A program made the translations under genes and the position numbers. Positions 21,466 through 53,005 of a stretch of 64,000 nucleotides of DNA are shown here, one piece after another; within the stretch, counting starts at the first letter, position 1, and the number at the start of each line of letters is the position of its first letter. The DNA lies in NCBI RefSeq assembly GCF_023221595.1, contig NZ_CP096567.1, forward strand, positions 1 to 64,000. The letters are read 5' to 3'. The notes beneath the pieces were generated by a model, which was given only the letters and a program-made list of their open reading frames with translations, was not told the origin of the DNA and made no database searches. The DNA is from Rhodococcus qingshengii JCM 15477. GTDB lineage: Bacteria > Actinomycetota > Actinomycetes > Mycobacteriales > Mycobacteriaceae.

Positions 21466-22104
21466 TCATGTTTTCGACGTGCCGGGTTGGTACGCCTGGG
21501 CGCGGGCGATACCGATGTCGTAGTCGTCGACGTACTCCCCCGTCCCCGGGCGTGTACATGCCTCCGACGCGATCGGGGACATACGCCATGAACACCACGT
21601 CGGGCCGACCGCCGTTGAATCGGCCGAACTGTTGATAGTCCCAACCGTCGGGTGCGTAATCATCGTTCCACGCCAGGCGCGCAACCGGGACGAACCCGGC
21701 ATCGGCATACAGCGTCGGCAGGACGGTATCGAAGCAGTCCAGACGATGACCTCCCAGCCGGGTGGCCTGCCGGATCATCGACTGCACCGCCTTCGGGTGC
21801 GCGCAGTCCTTGTGCCCGAAGGCCGAGACGATTTCGTCGTCTTTGAGTGCGACGCCGGCCTTTCCATCGTCGGTGACCAACAATCGCACCTGCCGGTACT
21901 CGGTTTCCTCGTAGACGTGGACCGACGCCGCATAGGGATTTTTTCGAGTGAGCTCGAGCATCTGCTCGCGGTAGACACTCGCGTCGGCGGGGTCCAGTTC
22001 GTAGAGCGTGGGAGCGGACAATCCGCGCGCAGCGAAACGTGCGCGTTCCTCAGCGGAGAGGGTGTGGTCGGTGACCGGTTGGATCTGGCGGTCGCCTATC
22101 AGAA
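21466..22104 (-). pseudogene. Frameshifted GNAT-like domain gene (family C, copy 1)
   Basis: From 22104 down to about 21545 one frame encodes a protein closely similar to the C-terminal half of the 24070-25194 gene: LYELDPADASVYREQM, RLLVTDDGKAGVALKDDEIV, RLDCFDTVLPTLYADAGFVPVARLAWNDDYAPDGWDY (cited in parts) and GGRPDVVFMAY. After the run of C's at about 21537-21548 the matching C-terminus (GEYVDDYDIGIARA) continues in another frame, so a one-base frameshift is present. The YADAGFVPVARL stretch resembles GNAT motif B, so an acyltransferase-like fold is possible. Confidence 0.65.
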
Positions 22105-28110: not shown

Positions 28111-29475
28111 TCAGTCCGGCGCGCCCGCGATCAGGCCGATGACCGTGGCCGCGATCAGGCCGATGACCGTGGCCGCGAGAACGGTCAAAGCGTCAGTGGT
28201 GTTGCGGCGCAGCTGGTTCGCGGCGATCCGCTCGCCGGAGGCGAACAGCGGCTCGAACGGCATCCGCAGAACCGCGCGCACACCGAGTTCGATGAACGCG
28301 TCGACAGCTTCGGTTTCGACCATCGGCGCATCCCCAGGCCCGTCCGTGATGACGACGACGGTGTAGGCGAGTACGTGCGGGCCAGCAGTGGCGATGATGT
28401 CGAGGAGCATGCGGTGCGCTGCTGCGGCAGCGTCGCGGCGTAGCGGAACAGGAACAACAAGTACGTTCGCGGCCGCGGCGGCCCATTGCCAACTTCCGGC
28501 GAGGCTGCTGTTGCCGGTGTCGGCGATGAGGATCTCGCGGTGCTGGGCCAGAACATTCGCCAGGCTCGTGCCGTCGTCGTATCCCAGTGCGGCGGCGGTG
28601 TTTGTCTGGGTTCCGGCGATGATGTCCTCTCCGCTGGGCTGGCGGACGAGGTACCGCGAGAGTGTCGATGGACGGATACTGCCCCCTGCGGTTGCGGCGG
28701 CGGTGAGAAGTGCGGAGACGTCCTGTTCTTGGTGGGGCGGCACGGCGACGCGGTCGGCGAGGCTGCCACCGATCTCGGCGAGATCGGCGCAGACGAGCGT
28801 TCCCGCTCCTCGGTGCTCTGCGATGACGGCCGCTAGTCCCGCAGCAAGCGGGGTTTTACCGACGCCGCCCTTGGGATTGGCGAGAGTTATTACCGAGAAG
28901 TCCGGGATCGGGCCGGTGATCGCGGCGACGGCGGCGCGGTGACGCAATTCGGCGGACCCAGCTTTCGGCGCCATTTGTAAGTTGAGGACGGCATTGAGTC
29001 GGCCGCGGATTCCTATGCGGGCGGGCTCGTTTGACCCTGAGTTGATCTGTGGGGCTGCCAGTACCGATGTCGTCGGGCGCTGCCCGGTGTCGGCGTGGTG
29101 GAGGTGTGGGGGCTCGCGGCGCTGATCCTGCGTCGGGACTGGCGGGCGTTGCGGGTTCACGGCGGCGGCGCGCACGCTCACCGGTTCGTCGACTGTGGGC
29201 GCGGGTACGGGTACGGCTACCGGGGCGGGTGGTGGCCCGGAGACCGCGACGTGCCCTTCGGGGGTGACGGTCAACCGTGTGGTGGCGCCGAACCCGCTCA
29301 CCGATACCTCGACGGACTCGCCGGAATCGGCAGCTTCCGTCTTGGCGAATTCTTCGATCGCGTGAAAGAGTGCATTTTCGTCCTCGGCTGCCAGTTCTAT
29401 GTCCGCAGTTCCTGATCCACCGCTCACGCGTGCGGTCGTCTCCGAGGTGACCTCAACAGACAGCCCCGCCGTCAC
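28111..29475 (-). CDS. ParA/MinD-like ATPase of the conjugation operon
   Basis: A 454-residue protein starting at a GTG. The first 90 residues form a beta-rich domain (VEVTSETTARVSGGSGTADI). A Pro-rich linker follows. The ATPase starts near residue 195 with a deviant Walker A (ANPKGGVGKTPLAAGL), and a switch-like Asp stretch reads LIADTGNSS. It probably positions plasmid DNA or the transfer machine rather than serving classical partition, as no ParB was seen. The C-terminus contains an exact 24-bp tandem repeat that doubles ATVIGLIA. Its start overlaps the stop of a 24-codon mini-gene. Confidence 0.75.
   Translation of the reverse strand: MTAGLSVEVTSETTARVSGGSGTADIELAAEDENALFHAIEEFAKTEAADSGESVEVSVSGFGATTRLTVTPEGHVAVSGPPPAPVAVPVPAPTVDEPVSVRAAAVNPQRPPVPTQDQRREPPHLHHADTGQRPTTSVLAAPQINSGSNEPARIGIRGRLNAVLNLQMAPKAGSAELRHRAAVAAITGPIPDFSVITLANPKGGVGKTPLAAGLAAVIAEHRGAGTLVCADLAEIGGSLADRVAVPPHQEQDVSALLTAAATAGGSIRPSTLSRYLVRQPSGEDIIAGTQTNTAAALGYDDGTSLANVLAQHREILIADTGNSSLAGSWQWAAAAANVLVVPVPLRRDAAAAAHRMLLDIIATAGPHVLAYTVVVITDGPGDAPMVETEAVDAFIELGVRAVLRMPFEPLFASGERIAANQLRRNTTDALTVLAATVIGLIAATVIGLIAGAPD
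28129..28176. repeat. 24-bp tandem duplication
   Basis: Two exact adjacent 24-base units (28129-28152 and 28153-28176, starting GATCAGGCCGATGACC) keep the frame of the ParA-like gene and double eight residues near its C-terminus. This looks like recent replication slippage. Confidence 0.9.
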
Positions 29476-29597: not shown

Positions 29598-30164
29598 TCA
29601 GGTGCAGTCGACGTGGAGGGAGACGTACATCTGCTGGTTCGCGCCGTAGGGCGAATACCAGTCGTCGGGCACTCGGGGTGCGGCGGCGATGTCGACATGG
29701 TCAGGGGTGGACCAGTCGATTTCCCGCAGATCCGGGTAGTACTGGTTCGAGGTGTCCAGCTCCGCGGTGAGGTCTTGTTCGGTGTTCTCAACGCTCAGGA
29801 CTTCGGAGGGGTGGGAGACGGAAATCTTCCATCCGTAGGGAGCGGTGATCACGGCGGAGAGGTCATCGCCGTTCCCGAAGCACCGTGCGGTGACGTCGTC
29901 GGGCGAGGGCGTGGTGATTTCGGCGGGCGAGTGCTTCTCGCCCCAGCCGATGATGATGCTGTCGTAGTCGTTCCTGGACTGGCTGACGATCTGCCCGGTG
30001 TTGGTGGCGGAAACGCTTTTCGCGTCTCGACCTCCGTCGCCGCCACATCCGCTGAGCATCAGTGTTGCACCGATCAGCACGACGCCGGCCGCGGGGATGC
30101 TGCGGCGTTGACGAGGCCATGACGCTCCGGTGATCTCCGTGTGCGGCGTGAGGCTGGTGTTCAT
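29598..30164 (-). CDS. Lipoprotein of the conjugation operon
   Basis: A 188-residue protein. The ATG overlaps the upstream stop as TGATG. The N-terminal signal peptide (AAGVVLIGATLM) ends in the lipobox LSGC followed by Gly/Asp residues, so it should be anchored to the outer face of the membrane. The mature part has two cysteines (ARCFGNG and the final VDCT) that could pair. No family was recognised. Its place in the operon suggests a surface part of the transfer apparatus. Confidence 0.75.
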   Translation of the reverse strand: MNTSLTPHTEITGASWPRQRRSIPAAGVVLIGATLMLSGCGGDGGRDAKSVSATNTGQIVSQSRNDYDSIIIGWGEKHSPAEITTPSPDDVTARCFGNGDDLSAVITAPYGWKISVSHPSEVLSVENTEQDLTAELDTSNQYYPDLREIDWSTPDHVDIAAAPRVPDDWYSPYGANQQMYVSLHVDCT

Positions 30165-30517
30165 CAGGAACCCGCTCCGAACGCGCCGACGGCGCCCAGT
30201 TCGCTCAACATTTCGTCGATTGTTTCCTCGGTCCGAACCAGCTGCGTGAGGGCGTTGTCGCGGGCTGCTCCTGCGGGTAACGCTTCGATGATCGCGCGCC
30301 GAAAACCTGCCGATTCCTTGATCTGGGCCAGGCGCTCGACCGTAAGTTCTACCTTCTCGTCGAGCTTGGGCAGCCACTCCGGCGTTCCCTCTTTCAGGGC
30401 GGTACGCAGTTCGAGGATGACGGGATCGTTGGCCCCTTTGGCCACGAACGGTCCACGGAGTGCCTCGACATCGGTGGATGTGGGGCTGATGGACTGGGAG
30501 ATTCGGCGGCTGGCCAT
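30164..30517 (-). CDS. Small helical protein of the conjugation operon
   Basis: A 117-residue soluble protein with GAGAGGAAA before the ATG. It is largely helical (LDEKVELTVERLAQIKESAGF, cited approximately, and LTQLVRTEETIDEMLSELG), which suggests a coiled-coil scaffold or adaptor. It follows the coupling ATPase gene by 100 bp and overlaps the lipoprotein start. No family known. Confidence 0.65.
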   Translation of the reverse strand: MASRRISQSISPTSTDVEALRGPFVAKGANDPVILELRTALKEGTPEWLPKLDEKVELTVERLAQIKESAGFRRAIIEALPAGAARDNALTQLVRTEETIDEMLSELGAVGAFGAGS

Positions 30518-30616: not shown

Positions 30617-32695
30617 TTACACAGCGAAGTCGGCGTCATGATCGGCGCCCGCGAGAAGCACGATTTCGCCCGGATCGAAAGTCACCTTGGCCCGGGTACG
30701 GCCACCGGTGTCGATGGTGATGGTGGTTCCGGTGGGTTTGGCGTCGACGGAGGCAACGGTGACGATGTCCGAGCCACCGTGCTCGTCCGTGAGCAAGATC
30801 GTGGTCCCCGGCTTGAGTGCGTGGGCGGGTATCGCATCGGCGATATCGGCGACCGGGACATCGCCGAGGAGGACGGGTTCTGCCACGCTTCCGTGCTCGC
30901 GTTTCTTCGTCGCCAGCGCGCTTTCCGTTTCGAGGAATTCGCGCAGTTCTCGTGAGTAGCACATGAATTCCGGTGCTCTACTGGGTTGCAGTGCGTCGAT
31001 GATCGCGATATCCGCGGCCGAGAGTTGGTTCCACTTGTTCGGGTGGCGGTCGACATTCGGTGTCCACCACACCTGCGCTTCCATCGGTGTTCCGTCAGGG
31101 CCGGTGGCCATGGCGCGGCCGGGGATCGAGGTGTCGATGCTGCGGCCTTGGTGCGCGTCACCCCACACCATCTGTGCACCGTCCTGGGAGAGGTTCGCCA
31201 GCGAGAGGCGAGTGCCGAAGTTGTCGCGCGCGTTTCCCGAGGCCCCACCGAACAACGACGCGTCCGGACGCTGCACCCCCAGGAGGAGACGGATTCCGGA
31301 AGATCGAGCGAGCACGGACAGTTCCGCCCACGCTCCGAGGGGGTCCAACGTGGCGATCAGGGTACGAGTTTCCTCGTCGGGATCTTTTTTCAGGCGTGTC
31401 CACGCAGCGGAGAGGATGAAGAACTCGTCGAGGACCGCGATCAACAGCGGAAGTTGGGACGGTTCGATTTTCTTCACGTGGACGTACTGGTTGCGCGCCA
31501 TCATTTCCGCGTGCAACGCGCGGATGAAGATCGCTGCCCGGATTGGGTCGTAGACGATCGCGCCGCAGCCGGGGTAGCCCTCGAGGCCGTCGAGTTCGAT
31601 CATTTTCGGGTCGACGCCGATGAACGGGATTCCGCGTAAGGATGCTTCGGTCAAGATCGTGCGGATGGCGGAGGTTTTGCCGCCTCCGGTCGGGCCGACG
31701 ATCAGGCAGTGCGGCTTGTTCGATTTGGTCGAGACGTCCCAGTAGGCCACCGTGCCGGCCGCCCCGGTTGCGTACGGCAGATAGCGGTTGGCGATCGACG
31801 TCAGCTCGCTGGGTGCGGGGTGCGATACCCGTGTGGGTAGAGGCGCTTTGAGGGTCAGCAGCAATTCTCCCGCGTCGGGTGACCATTGCACGTCCCAGTT
31901 CTGTCCGGATTCGTGTTCGCCGGCGATGGCGATCAGGGCTTCGTTGACGCGGTACTGAAACGCCCCCGATCCGCTGTTGAGGTTGGGAGTGAACCCGATG
32001 CGGTATCCGGTCTCGACTCCGTCGTCGCCGTACGAATGCACGCTCACCTTCGCGTCTTTGAGGATCGAGGCGCCTTCGAGTGAACCGGCGAGTGCCTTGT
32101 GTCGGACGCTGCGCTGATCTGCCACGGTCAACGCTCTCGCGATCATCAGCCGATTCTTGTGTGCTTCGTGCGAGATGTTCATCGTCCACTTCGAACCGCG
32201 AACACTATTCGCCACTGCCGCTGTGAACTCTTCCATCTGCTTCGGGCGGATGACCGCGCCGACCGGGAGCTTGATGCGTGCGGACTTGATCGCTGAGCGC
32301 CGCGAGAGCATCGGCACGCGCACCGCGAGTGCGCTGTGCCCGGTGGTTTGGCGCAGTTGGGCGGCCACGGTGACGCGGTGGCGGTGTGAGTGGAACCGGC
32401 CGGTGTCGAGCACGGCCGCGGCGATGGTGATCGCGATCAGCGGGCCTGCGGCGCTGTGCACGCGATCGAGTACGGCAACGATCTTCGCGAAGCTCTCGAC
32501 TGGGAGTTGTGTAGCGAGATCCGGTGCGATGTAGGCCAGTGCGGCCAGGGCGGCGAAGAACGGGGAGACGGGGCGGAAGCGGCGCGCTGTCAGGTCGTCG
32601 ATGCCGTCGACGGTCGGACGTTTCTTGTCGCCAGCGAACACGTCGACGAACAGGTCAGCGATGAAGTCGCGGATCGGATCTGGTTCCGCCATCAT
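30617..32695 (-). CDS. FtsK/TraB-like DNA translocase or coupling protein
   Basis: About 692 residues; GGGGGAGA precedes two ATGs in a row (32695 and 32692). The N-terminal 120 residues contain hydrophobic stretches (FFAALAALAYIAPDLA and GPLIAITIAAAVL), probably membrane helices. The motor core has Walker A CLIVGPTGGGKTSAI near residue 337 and Walker B LIAVLDEFF near 423. A QRPDAS stretch and GRAMATG complete an FtsK/HerA-type ring ATPase. It is the first gene of the minus-strand operon and has its own promoter box at 32747-32790. It probably moves DNA to the type IV channel. Confidence 0.88.
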   Translation of the reverse strand: MMAEPDPIRDFIADLFVDVFAGDKKRPTVDGIDDLTARRFRPVSPFFAALAALAYIAPDLATQLPVESFAKIVAVLDRVHSAAGPLIAITIAAAVLDTGRFHSHRHRVTVAAQLRQTTGHSALAVRVPMLSRRSAIKSARIKLPVGAVIRPKQMEEFTAAVANSVRGSKWTMNISHEAHKNRLMIARALTVADQRSVRHKALAGSLEGASILKDAKVSVHSYGDDGVETGYRIGFTPNLNSGSGAFQYRVNEALIAIAGEHESGQNWDVQWSPDAGELLLTLKAPLPTRVSHPAPSELTSIANRYLPYATGAAGTVAYWDVSTKSNKPHCLIVGPTGGGKTSAIRTILTEASLRGIPFIGVDPKMIELDGLEGYPGCGAIVYDPIRAAIFIRALHAEMMARNQYVHVKKIEPSQLPLLIAVLDEFFILSAAWTRLKKDPDEETRTLIATLDPLGAWAELSVLARSSGIRLLLGVQRPDASLFGGASGNARDNFGTRLSLANLSQDGAQMVWGDAHQGRSIDTSIPGRAMATGPDGTPMEAQVWWTPNVDRHPNKWNQLSAADIAIIDALQPSRAPEFMCYSRELREFLETESALATKKREHGSVAEPVLLGDVPVADIADAIPAHALKPGTTILLTDEHGGSDIVTVASVDAKPTGTTITIDTGGRTRAKVTFDPGEIVLLAGADHDADFAV

Positions 32696-32746
32696 TCTCC
32701 CCCTTCTGTTCACCGCTACCGCGACGTTCGCGGGGTGTCAGGGCAG

Positions 32747-32790
32747 ACGCTACGAGGGGCGAAAATTCCATGCAATGTGACTGTGGATAA
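32747..32790 (-). promoter_or_regulatory. Promoter with conserved TTATCCACAG box, coupling-protein operon
   Basis: Read on the minus strand: the box TTATCCACAGTCAC (32790-32777) touches a -35 element TTGCAT (32775-32770), then 17 bp, then a -10 element TAGCGT (32752-32747). The ATG is about 50 bases further on. The same arrangement occurs at 33274-33317 and 50914-50956. The box and spacing are seen directly; promoter function is inferred. Confidence 0.6.
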
Positions 32791-32985
32791 CTATTTTTCG
32801 AAGCGCATGTCGGAGCGCTCTCAAAGGCGTTCGGAGAGCACTCTTCCGAACGGTCAACGAGCCAAGCCGTACCGCTCGCAGAAGCGGCCAGGTCAGTGAG
32901 TGCGAGATCGCTCGCCGTAGCGTCTGATCTGGCAATACTCGAGCACCCTCGAAACTGACTGTGCGCGACGCAATTTCAGCAAGTA

Positions 32986-33016
32986 CACTCCCCCCGGAGG
33001 AACGGAGGGGGGAGTG
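32986..33016. repeat. Perfect 10-bp inverted repeat in the divergent intergenic region
   Basis: Arms CACTCCCCCC and GGGGGGAGTG with an 11-base loop that itself contains GGAGGAACGGA. It lies near the middle of the 680-bp gap between the two conjugation operons, followed by a further ACCCCC/GGGG run. It is a candidate transfer-origin structure, operator or terminator; nothing decides between these. Confidence 0.4.
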
Positions 33017-33273
33017 ACCCCCGCCAGGGGCGCTCGTTCGGACGCCTGCCCCACCCGCCCCGTCCCGCGTACACCCAGCCCGCCATTGTGAGCGCTGTTC
33101 GTACCGCGATCCCTCGACACGCTCGGCGCGCCCGCACGGCAGCATTCGATCAGCTCGTTCGAGGTGAATTCGCCGACCCACAGACACAACTCGCTCACCG
33201 CACCTGTTCGATCGCTCCGCTGCCGCCGCCGTATCCGATGTTCGGCGACCGCCATTTTGGTCGGTGGCGCGAG

Positions 33274-33317
33274 TTATCCACAGTCACTTTGGAAACCGGG
33301 CCCGCGCTACCTACCGT
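33274..33317 (+). promoter_or_regulatory. Promoter with conserved TTATCCACAG box, VirB4 operon
   Basis: The box TTATCCACAGTCAC (33274-33287) is followed at once by -35 TTGGAA (33289-33294), a 17-bp spacer and -10 TACCGT (33312-33317). The first gene of the plus-strand operon starts at 33374. The box is identical over 14 bases to the one driving the opposite operon. Confidence 0.6.
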
Positions 33318-33373
33318 CTGCACTCATCCCGCCCATGCGGGACGCCGCAGAATCACACACGTTGGAGACGAAG

Positions 33374-33685
33374 ATGATTGCCCTCGCACACGCCGTCAGC
33401 ACAATCGCACAGAGCGCCTATCGGCCCGTCCACCAATCCACGGTCACCTATCTCGCCGAGCCGAGCACCGAGGGGTTGACCGGCTGGATCAGATCGAACG
33501 GTGCGGTCACCATCATCGCGATCATCGCCTGCGCGCTTCTCCTCGGTGCACTCAAGGGCAATGTCTCGAAGGTCGTCACGATCGGCGGACTCTCGGTGGT
33601 CGGACTGCTGTTCGTTGCGCTGGCAGCCAATCAATCCGCTCAAGACGCCCTCGGTCAGTGGGCGTTGGGGTTGCTCGGCATCTGA
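33374..33685 (+). CDS. Small two-helix membrane protein (VirB2/TcpD-like position)
   Basis: A 103-residue protein starting MIALAHAVSTIAQSAYRP. Two membrane helices are clear (AVTIIAIIACALLLGAL and TIGGLSVVGLLFVALAA), joined by a short basic loop (KGNVSKV). Size, helix pair and place as first gene before the VirB3/TcpE-like and VirB4-like genes match pilin-like or small channel proteins of type IV secretion. The assignment by position is inference. Confidence 0.65.
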   Translation: MIALAHAVSTIAQSAYRPVHQSTVTYLAEPSTEGLTGWIRSNGAVTIIAIIACALLLGALKGNVSKVVTIGGLSVVGLLFVALAANQSAQDALGQWALGLLGI

Positions 33686-33733: not shown

Positions 33734-34138
33734 GTGATCGAAACCGACGACCTGATCTACCGCGTCGACAACCACTACCTGGGCCCGACCGGCAAGACAC
33801 TTCCTGTGCCGATCCGCTACTCGGCGGTGGGCGTGGGCCTGAGCACGTTCTTCGTACTGTTCATCATCGCCCGATCCGTCCTCCACCTCTCCTTGAGCTA
33901 CGGCACGTTTCTGATTCTTGTCGTCTCGACGGTGGCGGTGTCGAGCCGGATCACCAAGTACATCAGCGCGGACCGGCCGTTGCGCTCGGTGATCACAGCC
34001 GCCTATAACGACCTCACCTCTCCGCGCCCACCCAAGGCCGGCGAAAGCATCTACATCACCCTTCCACCACCGGATCGGACTCGCCGTGGCGTTGGCGGCC
34101 ACAACCATTGCGCTACCACCGGTGAGGCGAACATCTGA
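33734..34138 (+). CDS. TcpE/VirB3-like membrane protein
   Basis: A 134-residue protein; GAGGAG sits 5 bases before a GTG at 33734. The N-terminal part (IYRVDNHYLGPTGKTLPV) leads to two adjacent membrane helices (VGLSTFFVLFIIARSVL and FLILVVSTVAVS). Proteins of this size and layout precede the VirB4-type ATPase in Gram-positive conjugation operons. Its TGA overlaps the ATPase ATG as TGATG, so the two are coupled. Confidence 0.65.
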   Translation: MIETDDLIYRVDNHYLGPTGKTLPVPIRYSAVGVGLSTFFVLFIIARSVLHLSLSYGTFLILVVSTVAVSSRITKYISADRPLRSVITAAYNDLTSPRPPKAGESIYITLPPPDRTRRGVGGHNHCATTGEANI

Positions 34139-37100
34139 TGACCACGCACGAGAACGACGTCGCGTCTCTGTTCGACCCACGCAGCACCGGCCACATTCCC
34201 GTCGTTCCGCCCGGCGCTCTGCCTCCGTCCTGGGCGGCGGGGCGCACCGCCGCGCCACCGGATCGTCATGAGCCTGACCCGCCGCACACCCCCGATGTGT
34301 GGGCCGGGCCCGAACCGGTCGAGACAGACGACGCCGCGAGCATCACAACCGCCGACGAGATCCCCGACAAAGGTCGCGTTCGACGACGTGGGCGCGGCAG
34401 GAGCGGTAAGTCCGCCCGCACGAAAAAGTCCGAGACCGTCAAGGACCAGGAACGTGCTGCCCGCACCGTCGCGAAAGACCGCAAGAGCGTGAAGTTGGAA
34501 CTGTGCGGCACAGCAGGACACATCACCCGCACACCGAGGACTGCGACCGCATGGTTCGTGCAGCCACCCGGGCCGTGGAACATGCGCCCGACACCCAAGC
34601 AGCGACGCTACATACGCGACGAAGCGCTGATCCTGGCCAACCTGCGCGAGGCGGGCGTCGAACACCTGCACCGTCGGCTCACCCGCGCGCCGTGGCCGGT
34701 CCGAGCATGGGCACGCTCGCATCACGAGTGGGCCACACCCCTACCCGACGTCGACGGCGCGCTCTCGTGGAACGACTACCTGCGCGGTCAGCAGCACGGC
34801 ATGCTCTGGTCCGAACCGACGATCAAGGGCCGATACTGGGGCATCGAATTACCCCCGCGCTCGATGTCGAGCAGGGGCCTCGACTACCTCGCCCTGTGGC
34901 TGTCCGGATTCGGCAAGATCGGCGCAGCCGTAACGCGGTGGGCGGACGAGTCGTTCGACCGCGAAACAACCATGCTCGATGAGCATCTGGCGACCCTGGC
35001 CCGGATCATGGCCGCCCGCGGAGCCGATGCACGCCCGGCCACCGCAGGGCAGATGGACTACCTGTTGCGGCGCTCCGCGGCGATCGGTCTCCCGCTCGAC
35101 ATCGACGGCGTGATCTCAGGCGGCGGCGATTGGACCGACACCGACATCGCATCCCTCGAAGACCTCGCCGATCTCTCGCTCACCCCGGGCGACGGCTTCA
35201 CCACCGTCTCCGGTCTCGTCGACGGGCGCCGATACAGCGCTGCCGTGATCGTCTTGACGATCGGCCGGATGGCGCCAATGCCGATCCCGGAGCAAATGTT
35301 GCCGTGGCAGGTGATCGGCGACGGATCCGGCGAGCCTCTCGAATGGTCCGAACGCATCACGCTCGAAGAGAAGACCGCGACCGCCCGCGCGATGCGCTTC
35401 GTGACCGACAAGATCACCAACCAGTTCAAGCACTACACGGTCGAACACGACGAAAGCCCGCCGACGGAATTGCAGGAACAACATGCGGCGGCGCAGAAGA
35501 TCAAAACGCATCTCGAACACGATCATTCGGGGCTCTCGACCCGGGTCAAGGGGTGGTGGCGGATGGCGGTCGTGGGAGCAAACGCCGACGAGGTACGCCG
35601 CAAGGTCTCGACCCTGCAGGAGATGTACTCCCCGCACATCATCCTCGAGCACGAACACGGGCAGTACCAACTACTCCGCGAGTTCATTCCCGGCCAGCGG
35701 CAAGCGAACATCGCACACGCGCGCCGCATGAGCGTCTACGACGCCTCCGCCGGCATGGCGGCGGTCGGAGACCGTATCGGTGACCGGACAGGACTGATCG
35801 TCGGACAGACTGCGTCGATCGCACCGAGGCCAGCTGTGTGGAACTGCTTCGCCGGCCCGGAGAACAAAGACAAATCCGGCCTCACCCCGATCGTCGCCGT
35901 CCCCGGTTCGGGCAAGACGTTCCTGGCCGGAATGACGGTCTACCAAGCTGTCCGCGCCGGCGCCTACGGAGTGATCCTCGACCCCTCCGGTCCGCTCGCC
36001 CGGCTTGCCACACTGCCGGAACTGGCACCGTTCACGAGGGTCTACGCATTGACCGGGCGCTCACGTCCGGGCGCACTCAACCCGTACCGCGTGATCGCCG
36101 ACCCGGACCCCGACGACCCCGAATACTCCCCCACACATTCGCACTACGCACTCGATCCCGATCCGGCCGCAGCAGCGGAAGATCAGTACCAAGCGGACCT
36201 GCGTGCAGCTGCCGCAGAACGCATGGAATGCGCTGTGTCGGTGCTGAAAATGATGCTCACCGACAAGGACGTCGAGCAGCGATGGACGGAAAGTGTCCTC
36301 CACACGGCAGCACACAACGTCGGCGGCGACGCCGAACATCACCTCGGTCAGGTTCTCGATCAACTCGCCGCAATGGCGGAAAACGAACAGGACACAGAGG
36401 TCAAGACGACTGCCCGCAGCATTCATCAGAAACTGCACATGATGTCCCAACTCGCTGAAGCTCGGGTGCTGTTCCCCAAGCCCGGCACACTCGGCGGCTT
36501 CGACGCCGACACTACCTTCGACGAGCGCCTGACCATCCTGACGATGCCCGGCTTGCAGCTCCCTCCAGAGGGAGTCCCATCCTCGCAGTGGACACCGCAA
36601 CAACGGATGGCCGCGCCGCTGATGCATATGGCTGCGTGGCAAGCCAACCGGCTCATCTACGACAAGCCGCGACAGGCCCGCAAAATCCTGTTCCTCGACG
36701 AAAACAAGTACCTCGAACAAACCGGCGCGGGGCGCACTCTGAATCTCCGGATCGCACGTGACAGCCGCAAATTCAACGTGCGTGCCCTGGTGTGCTCGCA
36801 GCTACCCGACGACTACCTCGGCGTCGACGGCACCGACGACAAGTCTGCGCTGACATACGAAGTCATCATCGGAGACCTCGGCGGGAACGAACACGCTATC
36901 GAGGGCGCATTGAAGTTGCTGAACCTGCCGGCCGGGCAGGGATACGAGGCGACATTGGCCGACCTCGGGGGCGGCGGCGAAGACACGTTGGACCCGGACA
37001 CGGACACCTCGCACGTCGACCAAGCTAGGCGGTTCATGATGAAGATGGCCGACGACATCGAGATCGTCCGCTGCGATTGGACCAATTTCACCCACCTCGC

Positions 37101-37170
37101 GCACGTCTTTCAAGCCCTCGACTCCCGTCCACGAGCAGGCGCAACCATCAAGTCCGGTGGTGCGCCGTGA
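34138..37170 (+). CDS. VirB4/TcpF-like conjugation ATPase
   Basis: A 1010-residue protein. The first 110 residues are charged and probably flexible (RRRGRGRSGKSARTKKS). The ATPase has Walker A IVAVPGSGKTFLAG near residue 590 and Walker B KILFLDENKYLEQ near 850, followed by ARDSRKFNVRALVCSQLPDDY, which is typical of VirB4/TraC motors. It powers assembly of the transfer channel at the membrane. It is coupled to genes on both sides by overlaps (TGATG upstream, GTGA downstream). Confidence 0.88.
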   Translation: MTTHENDVASLFDPRSTGHIPVVPPGALPPSWAAGRTAAPPDRHEPDPPHTPDVWAGPEPVETDDAASITTADEIPDKGRVRRRGRGRSGKSARTKKSETVKDQERAARTVAKDRKSVKLELCGTAGHITRTPRTATAWFVQPPGPWNMRPTPKQRRYIRDEALILANLREAGVEHLHRRLTRAPWPVRAWARSHHEWATPLPDVDGALSWNDYLRGQQHGMLWSEPTIKGRYWGIELPPRSMSSRGLDYLALWLSGFGKIGAAVTRWADESFDRETTMLDEHLATLARIMAARGADARPATAGQMDYLLRRSAAIGLPLDIDGVISGGGDWTDTDIASLEDLADLSLTPGDGFTTVSGLVDGRRYSAAVIVLTIGRMAPMPIPEQMLPWQVIGDGSGEPLEWSERITLEEKTATARAMRFVTDKITNQFKHYTVEHDESPPTELQEQHAAAQKIKTHLEHDHSGLSTRVKGWWRMAVVGANADEVRRKVSTLQEMYSPHIILEHEHGQYQLLREFIPGQRQANIAHARRMSVYDASAGMAAVGDRIGDRTGLIVGQTASIAPRPAVWNCFAGPENKDKSGLTPIVAVPGSGKTFLAGMTVYQAVRAGAYGVILDPSGPLARLATLPELAPFTRVYALTGRSRPGALNPYRVIADPDPDDPEYSPTHSHYALDPDPAAAAEDQYQADLRAAAAERMECAVSVLKMMLTDKDVEQRWTESVLHTAAHNVGGDAEHHLGQVLDQLAAMAENEQDTEVKTTARSIHQKLHMMSQLAEARVLFPKPGTLGGFDADTTFDERLTILTMPGLQLPPEGVPSSQWTPQQRMAAPLMHMAAWQANRLIYDKPRQARKILFLDENKYLEQTGAGRTLNLRIARDSRKFNVRALVCSQLPDDYLGVDGTDDKSALTYEVIIGDLGGNEHAIEGALKLLNLPAGQGYEATLADLGGGGEDTLDPDTDTSHVDQARRFMMKMADDIEIVRCDWTNFTHLAHVFQALDSRPRAGATIKSGGAP

Positions 37171-39303: not shown

Positions 39304-40101
39304 ATGCCCGCAATCGGCCAAAACCCAATCCTGACCCCGATTCGTCGGTGGGCCCTCTACTCACGAACGAATCTTGCAATCTCCATCGTCGGTGTCTTCG
39401 CCGGACTCGTCGTACTCGGCCAGATCCCCGGAACACCGGAAACGACGAGGACTGCCGAATCACCGTCAACCGCAGCGTCCAGCCTCGAGATCACGGACAC
39501 CACCCAGCCTCCGAGTGCGCCGGATGCAAGCGAGGAAGTCACGCAAGCGCACACCGCTGCGATGTCGAACGCCGACGTCGCGTCGAGCGCGCAAGCGACA
39601 GCGATGACATACGCGCACCTCTACACCGATCACGCCGCAACTGCCGACGCCTGGGCTTCCGCACTCGCAGTGCTGGTCCCTGACGGCGCACTGACACCGA
39701 ACTTTCGCGCCGCCCGCCCAACCGTTGCCGTAGCGATCACCGGCCCGACACACACGGCACCAGCGCCTGCAGACGGGCCCAACGCGACGACAGTGACTGT
39801 GCCCACGTCCGCCGGAGCATTGAAGATCCACCTCGTGCAGAGCGAATCCGGGACGCGGCCCTGGGTCGTGACCACACCTCTGCCGACCCTCGATACCAGT
39901 TCCGATAATTCGGAACTCAACGCGACCGCTACCCCGACTACGACGGAACCGAACAGCACAACGACGCCCACGCGGGACCCTCAGAACCCCGCGCCAACCA
40001 CATCGCAGCCGCCGTCGACCTCGCAAGAACTTCTTCCCATCCCGGCACCCGGCCCGATCCCGATTCCCAATCTGGATACCCCGTTGCCGGGGGCGATGTG
40101 A
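39304..40101 (+). CDS. Membrane-anchored conjugation protein with Thr/Pro-rich tail
   Basis: A 265-residue protein with one membrane helix near residues 22-40 (LAISIVGVFAGLVVLGQI). The outer part (YAHLYTDHAATADAWASALA, then AVAITGPTHTAP) looks like an NTF2-like domain of the VirB8/TcpC kind, followed by a long low-complexity Thr/Ser/Pro tail ending in PIPAPGPIPIPNLD that could span the wall. It sits between the VirB6-like and wall-hydrolase genes with essentially no spacing. Confidence 0.6.
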   Translation: MPAIGQNPILTPIRRWALYSRTNLAISIVGVFAGLVVLGQIPGTPETTRTAESPSTAASSLEITDTTQPPSAPDASEEVTQAHTAAMSNADVASSAQATAMTYAHLYTDHAATADAWASALAVLVPDGALTPNFRAARPTVAVAITGPTHTAPAPADGPNATTVTVPTSAGALKIHLVQSESGTRPWVVTTPLPTLDTSSDNSELNATATPTTTEPNSTTTPTRDPQNPAPTTSQPPSTSQELLPIPAPGPIPIPNLDTPLPGAM

Positions 40102-41702
40102 TGACGAAAACGCGTACCCGACAGCCCCTTTTCGCCACTCGCACGAGGATCGTTCTGTCCCTGCTCACCGCCGCAACCACGCTCGCGCTCACTGCTTGTG
40201 GCGGTTTCGCGGCACAACCGGTGATCAAGAAATCACGCTGCGGGACATCGTCGACATCCGATCGAAGTCCGGCAACTCTGCCGGGCACTACGGAACTGAA
40301 AGCATCGGGGCCGATCACCCAGCCCACCAAGGACGGCACGACGACGTTTACTTCCGGATTCGGGCCTCGCTGGGGAACCGAACACAAGGGGGTCGACTTC
40401 GCCGGGCCCGTCGGGACACCGATCTACGCTGCCCTTGACGGCGTCGCCGTCAAGGGCGGGCCTGCCTCCGGGTTCGGGAACTGGATCGTGCTCGATTCGC
40501 TCGTCGACGGCAAGCCCGTGAGCACGGTCTACGGCCACATGTTCGACGACGGCGTCCTCGTCAAGGAAGGCCAGCAGGTCACAGCCGGTGATCACATCGC
40601 GAACATCGGAAACAACGGCCAATCCACTGGCGCGCACCTGCATTTCGAGTACTGGGAAGGTGGACGGTTGCAGGGCGGAACAGCCGTCGATCCGATGACC
40701 AAACTCGGCGGCGCGCCCTCTCCCGCAGATGAAACGGGCAGCAGCGCGCCTGCTATTGAGCTGGCGGCATCGTCATGGTCTATCGACTGCGCCGGCTTCG
40801 GTGTGGCAGGTGGCGGTGACCTCAAGGCCGGATCGGTTCCTCCCGAGATGGAACCGTGGTTCCGCAAAGCCGGGTCGCTGTGCCCGCAGATCACACCGTC
40901 GCTGTTAGCTGCGGATGCGAAGGCAGAATCCGGGCTCGTGCGTGGTCGGACCTCCAAGAGCGGCGCGAAGGGCATCACGCAGTTCATGGACCCTACGTTC
41001 GCCTCCTACGGCCGGGACGACGACGGCAACGGCACGACCTCGATCTGGGACGACGGGGACGCGATCATGGCTCAAGGCCGGTATTTCTGCGCCATCGCAG
41101 CGCAGGTCGACGGGTGGCTCGCCGACGGATCCGTCACAGGCGATCCGAAATCGCTCTACATCGCCTCATATAACGCGGGTGAAGGCGCGGTCAAGAACGC
41201 CGGCGGCATGCCCAGCGGCGGTGACTACACCACCCAGACACAGCCGTACGTCGCGAAAGTTCTTGCCTACGAAGCGGAATTTGCGGCACCTGGAGGTAGC
41301 GGAGAGTTGGTCGTCTCCCCTGGCTCTGCTTCCGGTGCGCAGGTCGTCGAGGCTGCACGCCAATACCTCGGTACCCCGTACGTCTGGGGCGGCGGCGGAA
41401 CCGGAGGACCGACCGGCGGCGGCTTCGACTGCTCCGGACTAACCAGCTACGCCATCTACACAGGCAGCGGGAACACGGTCACCTTGCCTCGCACGTCGGA
41501 GCAGCAATGGTCCGTCGGAGTCGAGATCCCCATCAGCCAAGCACAACCCGGCGACCTGGTATTCGGCGCATGGTCAGGATCTGGACCCGGCCACGTCGGA
41601 ATCGCGATCGGAAACGGCCAGATGATCCACGCCCCCACCACCGGGGACATCGTCAAACAAGCTCCGCTGCAGAACGATATGAAAGCCCGGAGGGTCATAT
41701 GA
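40101..41702 (+). CDS. Three-domain peptidoglycan hydrolase lipoprotein
   Basis: A 533-residue protein (ATG at 40101; GTG at 40098 also possible). The signal peptide ends in the lipobox LTAC. Residues about 80-200 are an M23/LytM peptidase (TEHKGVDF and HLHFEYW, the zinc ligands). Residues about 250-370 are a lytic transglycosylase domain (DAKAESGL with the catalytic Glu, GITQFM, YIASYNAGEGAV). Residues about 410-530 are an NlpC/P60 domain (GGGFDCSGLTSYAI and GPGHVGIAIG, Cys and His). It opens the wall for the transfer channel, as VirB1 and TcpG do. Three different cutting domains in one protein is unusual. Confidence 0.88.
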   Translation: MTKTRTRQPLFATRTRIVLSLLTAATTLALTACGGFAAQPVIKKSRCGTSSTSDRSPATLPGTTELKASGPITQPTKDGTTTFTSGFGPRWGTEHKGVDFAGPVGTPIYAALDGVAVKGGPASGFGNWIVLDSLVDGKPVSTVYGHMFDDGVLVKEGQQVTAGDHIANIGNNGQSTGAHLHFEYWEGGRLQGGTAVDPMTKLGGAPSPADETGSSAPAIELAASSWSIDCAGFGVAGGGDLKAGSVPPEMEPWFRKAGSLCPQITPSLLAADAKAESGLVRGRTSKSGAKGITQFMDPTFASYGRDDDGNGTTSIWDDGDAIMAQGRYFCAIAAQVDGWLADGSVTGDPKSLYIASYNAGEGAVKNAGGMPSGGDYTTQTQPYVAKVLAYEAEFAAPGGSGELVVSPGSASGAQVVEAARQYLGTPYVWGGGGTGGPTGGGFDCSGLTSYAIYTGSGNTVTLPRTSEQQWSVGVEIPISQAQPGDLVFGAWSGSGPGHVGIAIGNGQMIHAPTTGDIVKQAPLQNDMKARRVI

Positions 41703-43956: not shown

Positions 43957-44972
43957 GAAACCACCTCCCACTTTCGATTGATCTTGCCATCCTTGTCTTT
44001 GCCTGGCTCGTTGTTTCCGCTCGATTTGTGCTGGTACGCACACGGCATGCGCAGATTGTCACCGTATTGATTCTGTGCTTCACCGCAGTGAACACTCTGA
44101 AGTTCGGACCGATCAACGATGTACTGACCTCAGCGATAGACGCCCGGGCCGTCCGACTGATAGCTCACATTCTCTGTGTAGCGGCCGCGGCCGCCGCTGC
44201 ATGGGCGGCTGCCAGCGCGGTAGGACGGCTTCGGCCAGGGCTTCTGATCTTCGGCCTCGTTGCCGCGACAGTCGGTCTGGCATCTCTTGATGCTTTTGCC
44301 GGCAATCGGGCGCAGGTCATCGAATCCGTCGATCCTGAGGTGTTCTCGCTGTCCTACTTCACCATTTACGCCGGCGCGATCGTGGTCTTCGAGGTCTACG
44401 CAGTGATAGTCCTCGCCGCTGCCATTCGAACCGACAAGCCACATGCGGGGCTGCTTGCGCCGGCCGCGGCGACAGCTGCGCTCTTTCTGGCGACAGGCCT
44501 CAATGCAATAAGTCTGCTTTGGTACGCCGTGCGGGCAGCGACTGGTGACATCGGTCCTGCCGAGCAATTGCAGCGAAACACAAATGGCAACCTGTTTGCG
44601 TACTTCACCTTGGTTGTCGCACTCGTGGGTTCTGCCGCCGTAATCCGACGCACGGCAGAGCGGTCGTCTGTTCGATCCGCCGTTAACGTCACAGAGCTAA
44701 GACGACTATGGGAAGACCTCACTGATGCGGCACCAGGTGTGAAGTTCGATATGCGGCACTTCGAGCCTGACGCCCGGGTTGTCCGGATGATCACCGAGTG
44801 CATCGATGCCATCTACGAACTAGGAATTGATCCCGAAACAGCCACCCGCTCTGATCTTCTGGAACGCAATCTCGACGGCAACCGATCCGAGCTTCTCGCA
44901 GAGACGCACATCAGCGCTCGTGACGTGTTCAATCTTGCGAAGCGGTGGGATGCGAAATCCCTTCAAGGCTGA
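43953..44972 (+). CDS. Seven-helix membrane protein, MAB_1171c-like
   Basis: A 339-residue protein. Seven membrane helices can be traced from LSIDLAILVFAWLVVSARF to YFTLVVALVGSAAVI. The soluble C-terminal 100 residues contain LRRLWEDLTDAAPGV and RVVRMITECIDAIYEL, matching the end of the MAB_1171c family of putative transporters as I recall it. Such proteins often sit beside XRE regulators and IrrE proteases in actinobacteria. Its function is unknown; a signal-sensing or channel role fits the operon. It converges on the minus-strand gene at 44929, overlapping by 44 bp. Confidence 0.7.
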   Translation: MRNHLPLSIDLAILVFAWLVVSARFVLVRTRHAQIVTVLILCFTAVNTLKFGPINDVLTSAIDARAVRLIAHILCVAAAAAAAWAAASAVGRLRPGLLIFGLVAATVGLASLDAFAGNRAQVIESVDPEVFSLSYFTIYAGAIVVFEVYAVIVLAAAIRTDKPHAGLLAPAAATAALFLATGLNAISLLWYAVRAATGDIGPAEQLQRNTNGNLFAYFTLVVALVGSAAVIRRTAERSSVRSAVNVTELRRLWEDLTDAAPGVKFDMRHFEPDARVVRMITECIDAIYELGIDPETATRSDLLERNLDGNRSELLAETHISARDVFNLAKRWDAKSLQG

Positions 44973-45297
44973 CAAGAAGCGCCTTGCGCTGGCTGGCGTT
45001 GGCAGAACCTCGCAACATCACGCATTCCGGTCCGGCGGCAACAAGCACCTGCAATAACCGCAGCTCTGTGTACGCCTCATTTTCTCCAGAAACCCCGAAA
45101 TAGGTGGCGTTGGCCGTGCTGCTGCTTTTGAAAACCTCACTGAAATCAACAAAATGTTGTTGCTGTTCGGCCGTGAGGTCTCCGGCGCGGAGCTGCGCTT
45201 CGGAGCACCCGAGAGCCTGCGCGACCTCTCCACTACTCAAGCCGGTCACACTCAGCAGAAGCTCGACTTTCTGCTTGGTGGTGACTTCCTCAATCAT
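44929..45297 (-). CDS. Small protein with weak HTH, coupled to the XRE regulator
   Basis: A 122-residue protein. Its first 40 residues (KQKVELLLSVTGLSSGEVAQ, then ALGCSEAQLRAG) resemble a helix-turn-helix. The remainder (AYTELRLLQVLVAAGPECVML) is helical with no known match. The ATG overlaps the end of the upstream XRE gene by 8 bp, so the two are made together. It may modify or antagonise the regulator. Confidence 0.6.
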   Translation of the reverse strand: MIEEVTTKQKVELLLSVTGLSSGEVAQALGCSEAQLRAGDLTAEQQQHFVDFSEVFKSSSTANATYFGVSGENEAYTELRLLQVLVAAGPECVMLRGSANASQRKALLVSLEGISHPTASQD

Positions 45298-45880
45298 CGC
45301 TCTCCTCCCGTCTTAGTTCCCGAGCCAATGCGCGACGTCGCTTGTTGGCGTTCGTGCGCGCCGGAGTGATGTCGTCCGGCGGCACTGCCCAGAAATCCTC
45401 AAGCGCTTGGGCAACCCAGGCGGGGCTGACATGGCCGCTTTCACCCTGGCTGCGGAGCATCGCTGACGCTACTTTGCCGATATGTGGCGAGATGAGAGTA
45501 CGCAACCGGTCGACTACGTCCGAAAGTTCAGAGTTGTCGATCTCATCGGCCAATCGCCTAAGTTCCGCACTCACCTCAACGAAATCACCCAACGCCGAAT
45601 ATGAAATAACAACTTCACCGGCGGGGGCACCCACGACTTCCGATCCGCGCGGTGTCGGGTGGCCACCTTCGTAGGCAGTGGCCGCACTGCCCTCAGTCCA
45701 CTGCAGTACACGGTCCAGTTTGGAGAACGTGGCCATTCGGAGAGGGGGCGACTCGCCACTCTCGATCCGCACCATCGTCGGTTCAGATGGGCCACCCTGT
45801 GCAGCGACTGCAGCAAGGCTCAGGCCCAACTGTCGTCGACGCACGTGGACCACGTCGGCGAACTGCTGCATATCGGGCAT
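45290..45880 (-). CDS. XRE-family transcriptional regulator
   Basis: A 196-residue protein from the ATG at 45880. Residues 5-60 are a Cro/C1-type helix-turn-helix (FADVVHVRRRQLGLSLAAVA, then GPSEPTMVRIESGES). The C-terminal 130 residues are acidic and helical and may sense a signal or be cut by the ImmA/IrrE protease encoded next door. It faces the intergenic region at 45881-46176 and probably represses its own promoter, and possibly the palindrome at 42384. Confidence 0.8.
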   Translation of the reverse strand: MPDMQQFADVVHVRRRQLGLSLAAVAAQGGPSEPTMVRIESGESPPLRMATFSKLDRVLQWTEGSAATAYEGGHPTPRGSEVVGAPAGEVVISYSALGDFVEVSAELRRLADEIDNSELSDVVDRLRTLISPHIGKVASAMLRSQGESGHVSPAWVAQALEDFWAVPPDDITPARTNANKRRRALARELRREESDD

Positions 45881-46176
45881 GGGAGCAGCGTACTTAAAGA
45901 AAACCCAATTGCTTGAAACTGTCGCTTCACACGTCATCACATATTCAACTATATAAGTGTTGCGTAAACGTATGTGCATTAGATATGTTCACAACATCAA
46001 TATGTGCGCTTTACGTAAGTGCTAGCAGCGAGTCGAACGCCCAAAGGCAACCGTCCCGCCAGATGATTGAAACGAGATGAAAAGGAGTCCCCCAGCCGCT
46101 CCAACGGCCAGGGGACCAAGCCACACGGGTTACAGCCCGTCCAGCGGTTTCCTCTACGCAGAAAGCGAGTTCTGCT
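45881..46176. promoter_or_regulatory. AT-rich divergent promoter region and structured leader
   Basis: The stretch 45900-46020 is clearly AT-richer than its surroundings and lies between divergent genes. It holds two TATGTGC repeats (45971 and 46001) and the palindrome TTACGTAA (46011-46018), possible operator sites. Before the WhiB-like gene the transcript could fold into two hairpins, at 46087-46116 (GTCCCC with GGGGAC) and 46125-46140 (ACGGG with CCCGT). AT-rich spacing also suits Lsr2 binding. Confidence 0.45.
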
Positions 46177-50740: not shown

Positions 50741-50913
50741 CCAGATCCGGCATTAGTGGCCAACACCCCGGACGCCAACGTTCAAGCCTGCGATGAACGG
50801 CGGGATCGAGCGCGAGATCGGCCGAAGTTAGTCCCTCCGACAGTCGCGGAGCAGGATGTCCGTCCACCTCCCTCGACTGGACACTGCCGCCACACACCGG
50901 CCCACCAGCAAAG

Positions 50914-50956
50914 TTATCCACAGTGACTTTGCCGTCCGCACCCACTGCCGTAAACA
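50914..50956 (+). promoter_or_regulatory. Promoter with conserved TTATCCACAG box, cutinase-like gene
   Basis: The box TTATCCACAGTGAC (50914-50927) is followed by -35 TTGCCG (50929-50934), a 16-bp spacer and -10 TAAACA (50951-50956). The gene starts 43 bases later. The box differs by one base (C to G) from the two conjugation promoters. Confidence 0.55.
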
Positions 50957-50998: not shown

Positions 50999-53005
50999 AT
51001 GTCGACCGCACCAACATCATTCGGCCGTCGACCTACCAGAAAGACGGATTCGAGCCGACGCGCACTAGCGCTCGGGCTCGCCGTGTCGACGCTCGGTGCC
51101 GGGACTTTGGCGCTCACTGTTCCCTCACTCGCATCCGCGACGACGCCGGGGTGCACCGACGTCCTTGCAGTGATGACCCCTGGGACGTGGGAAACGACGT
51201 CCGACGCCGATCCCAGCGTTCCTGTCGGAATGCTCGCAGCGGTGGGTAATTCTCTGAAGACGAAGTACAACAACAAAGTTGAGATCTTCTACACCCCGTA
51301 CTCTGCTTCGGCGTTCGATCAGGGGAAAACTTACGGCGACAGCAAGGCATCGGCCATCGACGCCATCAACGACAAAGTCAGCACTGTCGCCGCGAACTGT
51401 CCTCAGACGAAATTCATCTTCTCCGGCTACTCCCAAGGCGCGGATGCCGCCGGAGACATCGCATCCGCCGTCGGAAATGGGAAAGGCTCGATCAGCGCCG
51501 ACAAGGTCCTCGCCGTCGGTCTGCTCGCGGACCCTGGCCGAGGAACTGAAGGTGAATCCGTCGTCGGACCATCCGTCGCCGGGACCGGAATTGCCGACCC
51601 GCGCCCCCAGGGAATGGGCATGCTCAGAGGGCGGGTCGCGACGATCTGCGACCCGCAAGACCTCTACTGCTCCATCGACAAAGGACGCAACAGCATTCTC
51701 GGGGCGCTCGGAACCGTTCTGAGTAAGTCGCCGGGCGCATCCACCGACTCCACAGTCGTCGGCGGCGGCTCACGTCTGGCGACCGCCCTGACGTCCGATT
51801 TCTCCCACGCCAACCTGAGCGGCATCGGCGACGACGTTGCCGACCTGACAGCAGCGCTCAACCCTCCCGCGCGGCAATCGGTCAACGTCTCCAGCGTCGC
51901 CCACAGCGCGACAGCACTGCTGGGCACTTTGAGCCCGCTGGCGGAGCTTCTCACTTCCGCGGCTGCGAACCCAGCATCGACGAGCCGACTCGCCGCCGCC
52001 CCGGCAGGTACTTCGGAGAACGCGGCTAACCAGGTACTCGCAGACGCCCAGGCTTCGGATCTGTCGGGCGCGTTGTCAAACGTAAACAGGATCGCGTCCG
52101 TTGCAACGCAATTGATCGACACAGGGAACACATCCCTGGCGACAAGTTCACCGGAAGCTGGCACGCTCGCCGGCACCGCCACGGCACTAAACAACCAGGT
52201 AGCACCCTTGGCCACCACCCCACCGGATGTCCTCGGCCAGGCATCGAGCGTGCTGGCAGTTCTCAAGCCGCGGGTCGTGGTCGATCAAGTTCTCAACATC
52301 GCAACCGGTATCACCTCCATCAACTACCCAGCGATTCTGAATGATCTCGCGATGCTGCCGCAGAGAGTGACGGCTCTCGACGTCGCCGGAGCCCACCAGA
52401 TCGCAGGCGATCTCAACAACCAGTTCGCACCACTGGTGAAAATGGCCGCCGACGTCGACCTCGCATGGATTTCGCAGATCCTTTCCGCCATCCCGGACGC
52501 GACCGGCACCGCGCAAATCGCGGCAATCGTCTGCAACATCCTCTCCAGGATCGATATCATCGCGACCGCCAACAGTGTCGGACAGATCCAAGAAATCGCC
52601 TGGCAGGTTCTCGAAGGAAACCCGGCCGCGCTCGCCGGACTGTTACCAATCGGACTCGACCTCGCCTCCGCCGCAACAACAATGCTCACCGGGACAGCGA
52701 GCAAGACCGAGGCATCACTACTGGGCAAAGAAAGTTCCCCATCCGTCTCGCCCACGCAGATCAGCCGCCAAACCCAGAACATGGACTTGAGCGGGCTGAC
52801 CAGTTCCCTGACCGCGATGGCCGGAACGCAAGACACGGAAGACTTGGCAACCCTCGTCGGCCAAGGACTCAACGCCGCCACGTTCGTCGCCTCCGGCGCA
52901 CACACCAACTACACACAACTCACCGTCGACAACACCGGCCGCAACGCAATCCAATGGCTCACCGACTGGTTCGCACTCCAAATCCAGCAAACCGCATACC
53001 GTTAG
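50999..53005 (+). CDS. Secreted cutinase-like esterase with long C-terminal extension
   Basis: A 668-residue protein. The signal peptide (RRALALGLAVSTLGAGTLAL) ends near LASA-TTPG. Residues about 50-240 are a cutinase/alpha-beta hydrolase domain: first cysteine in PGCTDVLAV, nucleophile in FIFSGYSQGADAAG near residue 141, and acid region ICDPQDLYC. The usual His shortly after the acid is not evident; the nearest is SDFSHANL. The following 400 residues are helical, Ala/Leu-rich and low in complexity, and unlike any family I know. It shares a promoter box with the conjugation operons, so it may loosen the mycolate envelope for transfer. Confidence 0.75.
   Translation: MSTAPTSFGRRPTRKTDSSRRALALGLAVSTLGAGTLALTVPSLASATTPGCTDVLAVMTPGTWETTSDADPSVPVGMLAAVGNSLKTKYNNKVEIFYTPYSASAFDQGKTYGDSKASAIDAINDKVSTVAANCPQTKFIFSGYSQGADAAGDIASAVGNGKGSISADKVLAVGLLADPGRGTEGESVVGPSVAGTGIADPRPQGMGMLRGRVATICDPQDLYCSIDKGRNSILGALGTVLSKSPGASTDSTVVGGGSRLATALTSDFSHANLSGIGDDVADLTAALNPPARQSVNVSSVAHSATALLGTLSPLAELLTSAAANPASTSRLAAAPAGTSENAANQVLADAQASDLSGALSNVNRIASVATQLIDTGNTSLATSSPEAGTLAGTATALNNQVAPLATTPPDVLGQASSVLAVLKPRVVVDQVLNIATGITSINYPAILNDLAMLPQRVTALDVAGAHQIAGDLNNQFAPLVKMAADVDLAWISQILSAIPDATGTAQIAAIVCNILSRIDIIATANSVGQIQEIAWQVLEGNPAALAGLLPIGLDLASAATTMLTGTASKTEASLLGKESSPSVSPTQISRQTQNMDLSGLTSSLTAMAGTQDTEDLATLVGQGLNAATFVASGAHTNYTQLTVDNTGRNAIQWLTDWFALQIQQTAYR

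Follow-up and report, generated by a model that had tools for sequence, protein, structure and literature searches.

Control of transfer genes by regulators encoded on the mobile element itself has been described for pSAM2, with KorSA/Pra, and for XRE-controlled elements (accessible portions of PMC3218068 and of the review PMC6540685). One Frankia actinomycete integrative and conjugative element bears a putative WhiB-like gene (accessible portion of PMC3218068), and plasmid-encoded Wbl proteins are known from SCP1 (PMC6282962, in its accessible portion). At the WhiB7/SigA promoters of Mycobacterium, the regulatory site lies immediately upstream of the -35 element, and DnaA-regulated promoters, such as those of dnaA and mioC in Escherichia coli, have the DnaA box at the promoter. 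An open-access literature search returned no account of conjugation control in rhodococcal or nocardial plasmids; plasmids of related kind bear catabolic, virulence and resistance genes. Here we analyze the first 64,000 nucleotides of contig NZ_CP096567.1 of Rhodococcus qingshengii JCM 15477 (hereafter, the window), in which one box is shared by the promoters of two divergent conjugation operons and of a cutinase gene.

This locus resembles each of the described systems in part. Like the WhiB7/SigA sites, its boxes directly precede the -35 element but, unlike those, they are long, GC-containing and lineage-specific. As at DnaA-regulated promoters, the sequence TTATCCACA is located at the promoter in plasmids of one class (type A), but it is absent in the other box classes and is a single box beside the -35. 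The likeness to pSAM2 and the XRE-controlled elements would consist in transfer genes under element-encoded control; those and other Gram-positive elements, as described in the accessible portions of PMC3218068 and PMC6540685, differ in having neither a shared -35 box nor a cutinase in the regulon.

Three promoters with a common box

Three exact 20-mers, each consisting of AGTTATCCACAGTSAC followed by WTTG, are present in the window. Box 1 (AGTTATCCACAGTCACATTG, 32773-32792, minus strand) lies 5' of the tcpA-like operon, box 2 (AGTTATCCACAGTCACTTTG, 33272-33291, plus strand) 5' of the VirB4 operon, and box 3 (AGTTATCCACAGTGACTTTG, 50912-50931, plus strand) 5' of the cutinase gene. All three lead into TTGNNN and TANNNN hexamers with spacers of 16-17 bp (the sigma-70 criterion being 16-18 bp): TTGCAT (32770-32775) and TAGCGT (32747-32752) at box 1, 17 bp apart; TTGGAA (33289-33294) and TACCGT (33312-33317) at box 2, 17 bp apart; and TTGCCG (50929-50934) and TAAACA (50951-50956) at box 3, 16 bp apart. 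The -10 hexamers of tcpA and virB end at 32747 and 33317, the limits of the segment singled out in a preliminary description of this DNA. From the -10-like hexamer to the start codon there are approximately 42-56 bp at the three promoters, with the tcpA start taken at about 32695. The hexamers are weak by consensus, as a sigma-70 scan of 32600-33420 at a threshold of 9/12 finds no promoter; such weakness agrees with promoters that require help, without proving such a need.

The box is rare. At up to three mismatches, AGTTATCCACAGTSAC has three matches in the window, all with no mismatch, and an exact match appears in none of the 100 dinucleotide shuffles; contig C5 (516,925 bases), which includes the three promoters, contains no further copy of this 16-letter sequence at up to two mismatches, and the seven other matches in the genome are all on C1, with one or two mismatches. 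The left half of the box, GTTATCCACA, is found on C5 at the three promoters only and on C1 14 times. The preliminary description, which had reported a box present three times next to TTG and in no other copy, followed by a -10 element after 16-17 bp and a start codon 40-60 bp further on, is borne out in each of these respects.

Box spelling across related plasmids

The comparison covered 39 divergent tcpA-virB pairs, namely, that of the window, 17 of the 61 similar plasmid records (none of the 17 named Prescottella equi) and 21 loci from genomes of the genus and family; L160, which is the same plasmid as L014, and the distant L173 lie outside this set. The tcpA starts in relatives were placed with the L099 protein, and the search for the shared word was confined to 50-170 bp before the start codons. 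A clear shared box links the two promoters in 35 of the 39 pairs, in 33 of these beside TTG at both, although several of the loci are closely related, so that the counts are not independent; in the remaining four (L098, L169, L170 and L172), the shared word is weak or interrupted by mismatches. Measured from both starts, the best such word is 84-123 bp upstream, except at the virB gene of L166 (66 bp), the start of which may be misplaced. Box 1 has a counterpart at the matching place in L011, L012 and L085, and all three boxes are present in the near relatives pRLCBG43 (L011), the CX-1 plasmid (L012) and R. globerulus (L020/L034), with one change in the cutinase box in each of L011 and L012. 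An exact 18-letter search of the GTDB genome contigs gave 36 stretches, of which two belong to Rhodococcus (L020 and L034, on one R. globerulus contig) and the other 34, scattered over unrelated organisms, were taken as chance.

The box comes in several spellings. Type A (22 pairs) consists of GTTATCCACA, 6-7 nucleotides and TTG (in three type A virB promoters, the script picked an earlier TTG, and the aligned one is 7 nucleotides further on); type B (six pairs, with L170 and L172 related to it) is GGACACCCCGTTGAG; type C (seven pairs) is TCACCNNNTTGG; and a fourth spelling, GACACGCCCGAG-GCGTGCGGGGGTC, is seen in L164/L165; these yielded no TTG pair and were kept out of the TTG counts. The spelling is lineage-dependent, yet consistent inside one plasmid. 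Among 17 representatives hand-picked from 37, the 7 nucleotides before TTG give 99 matches in 119 positions when the tcpA and virB promoters of one plasmid are paired, compared with a mean of 52.6 (standard deviation 6.8) and a maximum of 83 in 100,000 permuted pairings. The excess is seen in type A alone (50 matches versus 29.9 permuted, p 8e-5) and in types B and C (49 versus 38.8, p 6e-4).

The same association extends to the cutinase gene. In pNSL1 (type C), its own 17-letter box, sought across 48 kb at up to two mismatches, marks the promoters of tcpA, virB and the cutinase gene and nothing else; a scan with a 12-letter version yields three additional places. Among the 28 cutinase promoters that share a contig or replicon with a tra pair, 19 have the plasmid's own box, nine a diverged member of that box's class and none a different class as the sole candidate, with the reservation that these promoters were classed by eye and the sites picked for their likeness to the tra boxes of the plasmid itself, a choice that favors a match. 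The 19, with one or two changes allowed, are those of the window, G003, L011, L012, G011, G005 C2, G005 C4, G009, G008, G053 C63, pNSL1, G164, G006 C2, G027, G015, G010, L328, L329 and L330; TTG reads TAG in G006 C2 and G027. The nine diverged boxes are those of G017, G143, G150, L331 and the erythropolis group (L327 and L332-L335), the most doubtful being G143, which is a pattern match only, and L332. The class B and C cutinase sites score 23-31 of 44, which does not exceed the shuffle maximum except in G150 (29 versus 26), and are supported by an exact core of 8-14 letters. Exceptions outside the 28 are further cutinase genes of other subtypes on G005 C2, G015 C2 and G017 C2, and cutinase genes on a contig other than that of the tra pair in G023 (of the G015 subtype), G002 (with a degenerate erythropolis box), G004 (two, one of them unlike the class of its pair), G118, G191 and G053.

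The sequences directly show the shared box, placed by a -35-like TTG, as well as its conservation and its joint change by lineage, and the three promoters very probably form a conjugation regulon of a plasmid family of Rhodococcus and Nocardiaceae. The proposal of a single regulator for the coupling-protein operon, the VirB4 operon and the cutinase gene, made in the preliminary description together with a suggested mismatch search of the replicon and related plasmids, gains support from this comparison because the trio shares a box even where the spelling is different and, within a plasmid, both tra promoters vary in concert. Inclusion of the cutinase has a rationale in statements in the accessible portion of PMC6794481 that DNA may be helped across the envelope by a secreted cutinase and, as cited there from another paper, that cutinase promoted conjugation of pFiD188.

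It is very improbable that the common sequence is an extended element of an ordinary sigma factor, or an inherited likeness with no dedicated regulator. TTG is indeed found at the box in both promoters of 37 of the 39 pairs (TTG having been searched for), and a TACNNT-like hexamer follows downstream in most of the virB promoters; but the box varies between lineages while agreeing inside a plasmid beyond permutation, the distant cutinase gene included, and loci in one genome have unlike boxes even though the sigma factors are common to them.

Candidate readers of the box

The preliminary description had named DnaA as a second possibility. Under this alternative, host DnaA binds TTATCCACA, tying transcription of the transfer genes to replication or the cell cycle, and the remainder of the box is promoter. 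The DnaA box TTWTNCACA is found at both tra promoters of 22 of the 39 loci; GTTATCCACA is present at virB in all 22 loci that have it at tcpA (the class being defined by its presence at tcpA) and is invariant across the type A tra promoters, unlike the right half. On the chromosome, two copies of TTATCCACAGATGTG, which contains TTATCCACA, lie beside dnaA in the 4 kb to each side of the contig ends, a three-box cluster at C1:29483-29522 includes GTTATCCACA twice, and TTATCCACA equals a strong E. coli box (PMC5835720, accessible portion). However, the other 17 pairs lack GTTATCCACA at tcpA and have no DnaA box at the box, yet share another box; G005 and G006 each have one locus with GTTATCCACA and one without; the G before TTATCCACA, constant in the tra promoters, is replaced by C or A in both copies next to dnaA (and by C in the cutinase box of G015); and four of the five erythropolis-group cutinase promoters have GTTCTTCACAG, which falls outside TTWTNCACA. 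As an account of the box, then, DnaA is unlikely. It may still have a part at the left half, given the 22 of 22 co-presence and the copies by dnaA: because TTATCCACA lies beside dnaA and is constant against a drifting right half, DnaA, or a factor of like sequence preference, may well participate in type A. The role of sole regulator is weakened by the 17 loci without GTTATCCACA, and DnaA cannot serve as a general reader.

Chromosomal clusters of DnaA-like boxes away from dnaA, made of TTATCCACA, TTGTCCACA and near variants, were observed at G000:C1:29483-29522 and near 192433 (L314, L315).

Genomes with two loci bear on where the reader is encoded. G005 and G006 each have one type A and one type B locus on different contigs, and G053 has two type C subtypes, also on different contigs. 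A host-only reader is unlikely because these three genomes each hold two loci with different boxes, and a plasmid-encoded reader, which we consider probable, is therefore likelier than DnaA alone.

Ahead of any other single candidate, the reader is perhaps the WhiB-like protein encoded at 46177-46767 (plus strand), for which we put the chances at a little over even. It has four conserved cysteines and a basic C-terminal tail, and its gene is found in all 24 sets of loci in which the backbone genes were compared, beside a helix-turn-helix (HTH) gene. C101, C125, C128 and C134 do not vary across an alignment of 24 sequences, selected from 34 open reading frames (ORFs) with short pieces left out; four invariant cysteines are a Wbl criterion (PMC6282962, accessible portion). 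The predicted fold is WhiB7-like, aligning to WhiB7 over 72 of 73 residues, as would be expected of the Wbl fold, and together with the basic tail likens the protein to WhiB7, from which it differs in being plasmid-encoded, in its N-terminal Cys-rich extension and in having no exact G[V/I]WGG turn. This turn reads MIWAA in the window copy and is MIWAG-like or without Trp in relatives, and the protein is therefore labeled WhiB-like rather than a full Wbl member. Pfam Whib is reached at E 0.005-0.026, below the cut-off, in three relatives, with no Whib match in Pfam for the window copy and no WhiB in NCBIfam for three proteins; a protein search returned six close relatives only, a PDB sequence search two Cys-rich ribbons (E 0.47 and 0.8) and no WhiB, and a single-sequence structure model was useless (predicted local distance difference test score 36).

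The plasmids G015 and G023 offer the most informative comparison: nine of the 11 backbone proteins compared are 76-94% identical and the right half of the box differs at both promoters, and the WhiB-like proteins are only 39% and the rep-like proteins 44% identical. Compared with the G005 type A locus, G015 has the same right half at 13 of 14 positions and a more similar WhiB-like protein (49%). The same pair bears on the Xre-type HTH protein encoded beside the WhiB-like gene, a double HTH in most plasmids and a single HTH (45290-45979) in the window, which could be the reader, as activator or repressor, either alone or as the DNA-reading partner of the WhiB-like protein in the manner of a WhiA-WhiB-like pair. 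The double-HTH protein has two HTH_3 domains (E 4.2e-21) and is present next to the WhiB-like gene in 20 of the 24 backbones; but it is missing in the four window-type backbones, which retain the type A box, its HTH segments are nearly identical in G015 and G023 (93% over the protein) despite the differing right half, and its similarity does not follow that of the right half (rho 0.05 over 13 plasmids hand-picked from those with all genes). On these three grounds, the double-HTH protein was put aside as the reader of the right half, and the Xre-type alternative as a whole appears improbable, somewhat more so than the DnaA one.

Several observations weigh against the WhiB-like protein as reader of a common operator. 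The rep-like protein, too, differs along with the box in G015 and G023; when all pairs are considered, the correlation for tcpA and for the hydrolase is as good as that for the WhiB-like protein; the WhiB-like gene is in pieces in G005 C4 and, in its long form, also in G027, and such disruption in one or two loci slightly reduces our confidence. At the level of the boxes, the erythropolis group has GGCGGG at tcpA versus GTTGCA/GTCGCA at virB, the right halves of L093 are also unlike, and over the whole promoter stretch, a locus's own virB promoter is the best or tied best match in 16 of the 39 loci.

With these points counted, we give the following explanation somewhat better than even odds. 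The box would be the operator part of three co-regulated promoters, those of the coupling-protein operon, the VirB4/type IV secretion system operon and the cutinase; a plasmid regulator would read the 5-7 bp immediately upstream of the -35 and recruit or stabilize sigma-A RNA polymerase there. Less certainly, this regulator would be the WhiB-like protein, bound, in the way of WhiB7, to region 4 of sigma-A and having its basic tail placed in the DNA just upstream of the -35, so that control by activation follows by analogy. The left half GTTATCCACA would be a second element, for DnaA or another factor, and the cutinase would be turned on alongside the transfer machinery, easing passage of DNA through the mycolic-acid envelope. 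More tentatively, and on balance short of probable, each plasmid might have its own WhiB-like activator and matching box, which would give several co-resident plasmids conjugation programs that are insulated and orthogonal, with activator exchange and operator re-spelling coupled repeatedly. A regulon defined by three promoters, with an operator that can be read and a specific protein proposed as its activator, would make conjugation control in these plasmids testable, and the lineage-specific boxes provide a natural series on how a WhiB-like protein might select DNA.

Scans of L214 and L014 found no box before the WhiB-like gene that would point to autoregulation. In L309 (G005 C4), this gene is apparently split between 5590-6009 and 7367-7765, about 1.4 kb apart. 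Many WhiB-like proteins have a zinc-ribbon-like, Cys-rich N-terminal extension, and 23 of the 24 aligned ones end in Ala, 18 of them in Ala-Ala, reminiscent of C-terminal Clp degrons. A second, short WhiB-like gene is present in several type A plasmids (L013, L175, L177, L181, L191, L195 and L307) and was not found in type B and C loci. Near the double-HTH gene, L013, L175, L177, L205 and L213 encode a further single-HTH protein of 118 amino acids, which may be EspR-like.

Genes of the three units and their surroundings

The first gene of the left operon encodes an FtsK/SpoIIIE-like, TcpA-like coupling protein (30617..32713, minus strand, as the longest ORF; Pfam FtsK_SpoIIIE 7.9e-10), with a likely start near 32695 by comparison with L011 and from the sequence. 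It is followed by genes for a small conserved protein of 117 amino acids (30164..30517, minus strand), a ParA-like ATPase (28111..29475, minus strand; CbiA 6.5e-5, below the cut-off, and the annotation of relatives) and others. The right operon, on the plus strand, starts with a gene for a 103-amino-acid protein (33374..33685) and includes those for a VirB4-like ATPase (34138..37170; Pfam AAA_10 1.2e-17, and TcpF 8e-10, below the cut-off), an M23, SLT and NlpC/P60 cell-wall hydrolase (40098..41702), a second small protein and a large protein. The third unit encodes the cutinase-family protein (50999..53005, plus strand; Pfam Cutinase 3.9e-14). A second cutinase, 56% identical, is encoded at G000:C5:126616-128553 (L235), with no class A-C box in the upstream stretch scanned.

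Divergent from the WhiB-like gene, the window encodes a single-HTH (HTH_31-like) protein (45290..45979, minus strand) in the position of the double-HTH protein of other plasmids; its gene overlaps that of a small protein with a weak likeness to sigma region 4 (44929..45297, minus strand; Sigma70_r4_2 4.9e-4, below the cut-off). Farther away, 21536-21961 and 24088-24552 (minus strand), about 2.5 kb apart, both encode one conserved backbone family of 160 amino acids, and these stretches are 71% and 66% identical to the L014 protein, which suggests a duplication.
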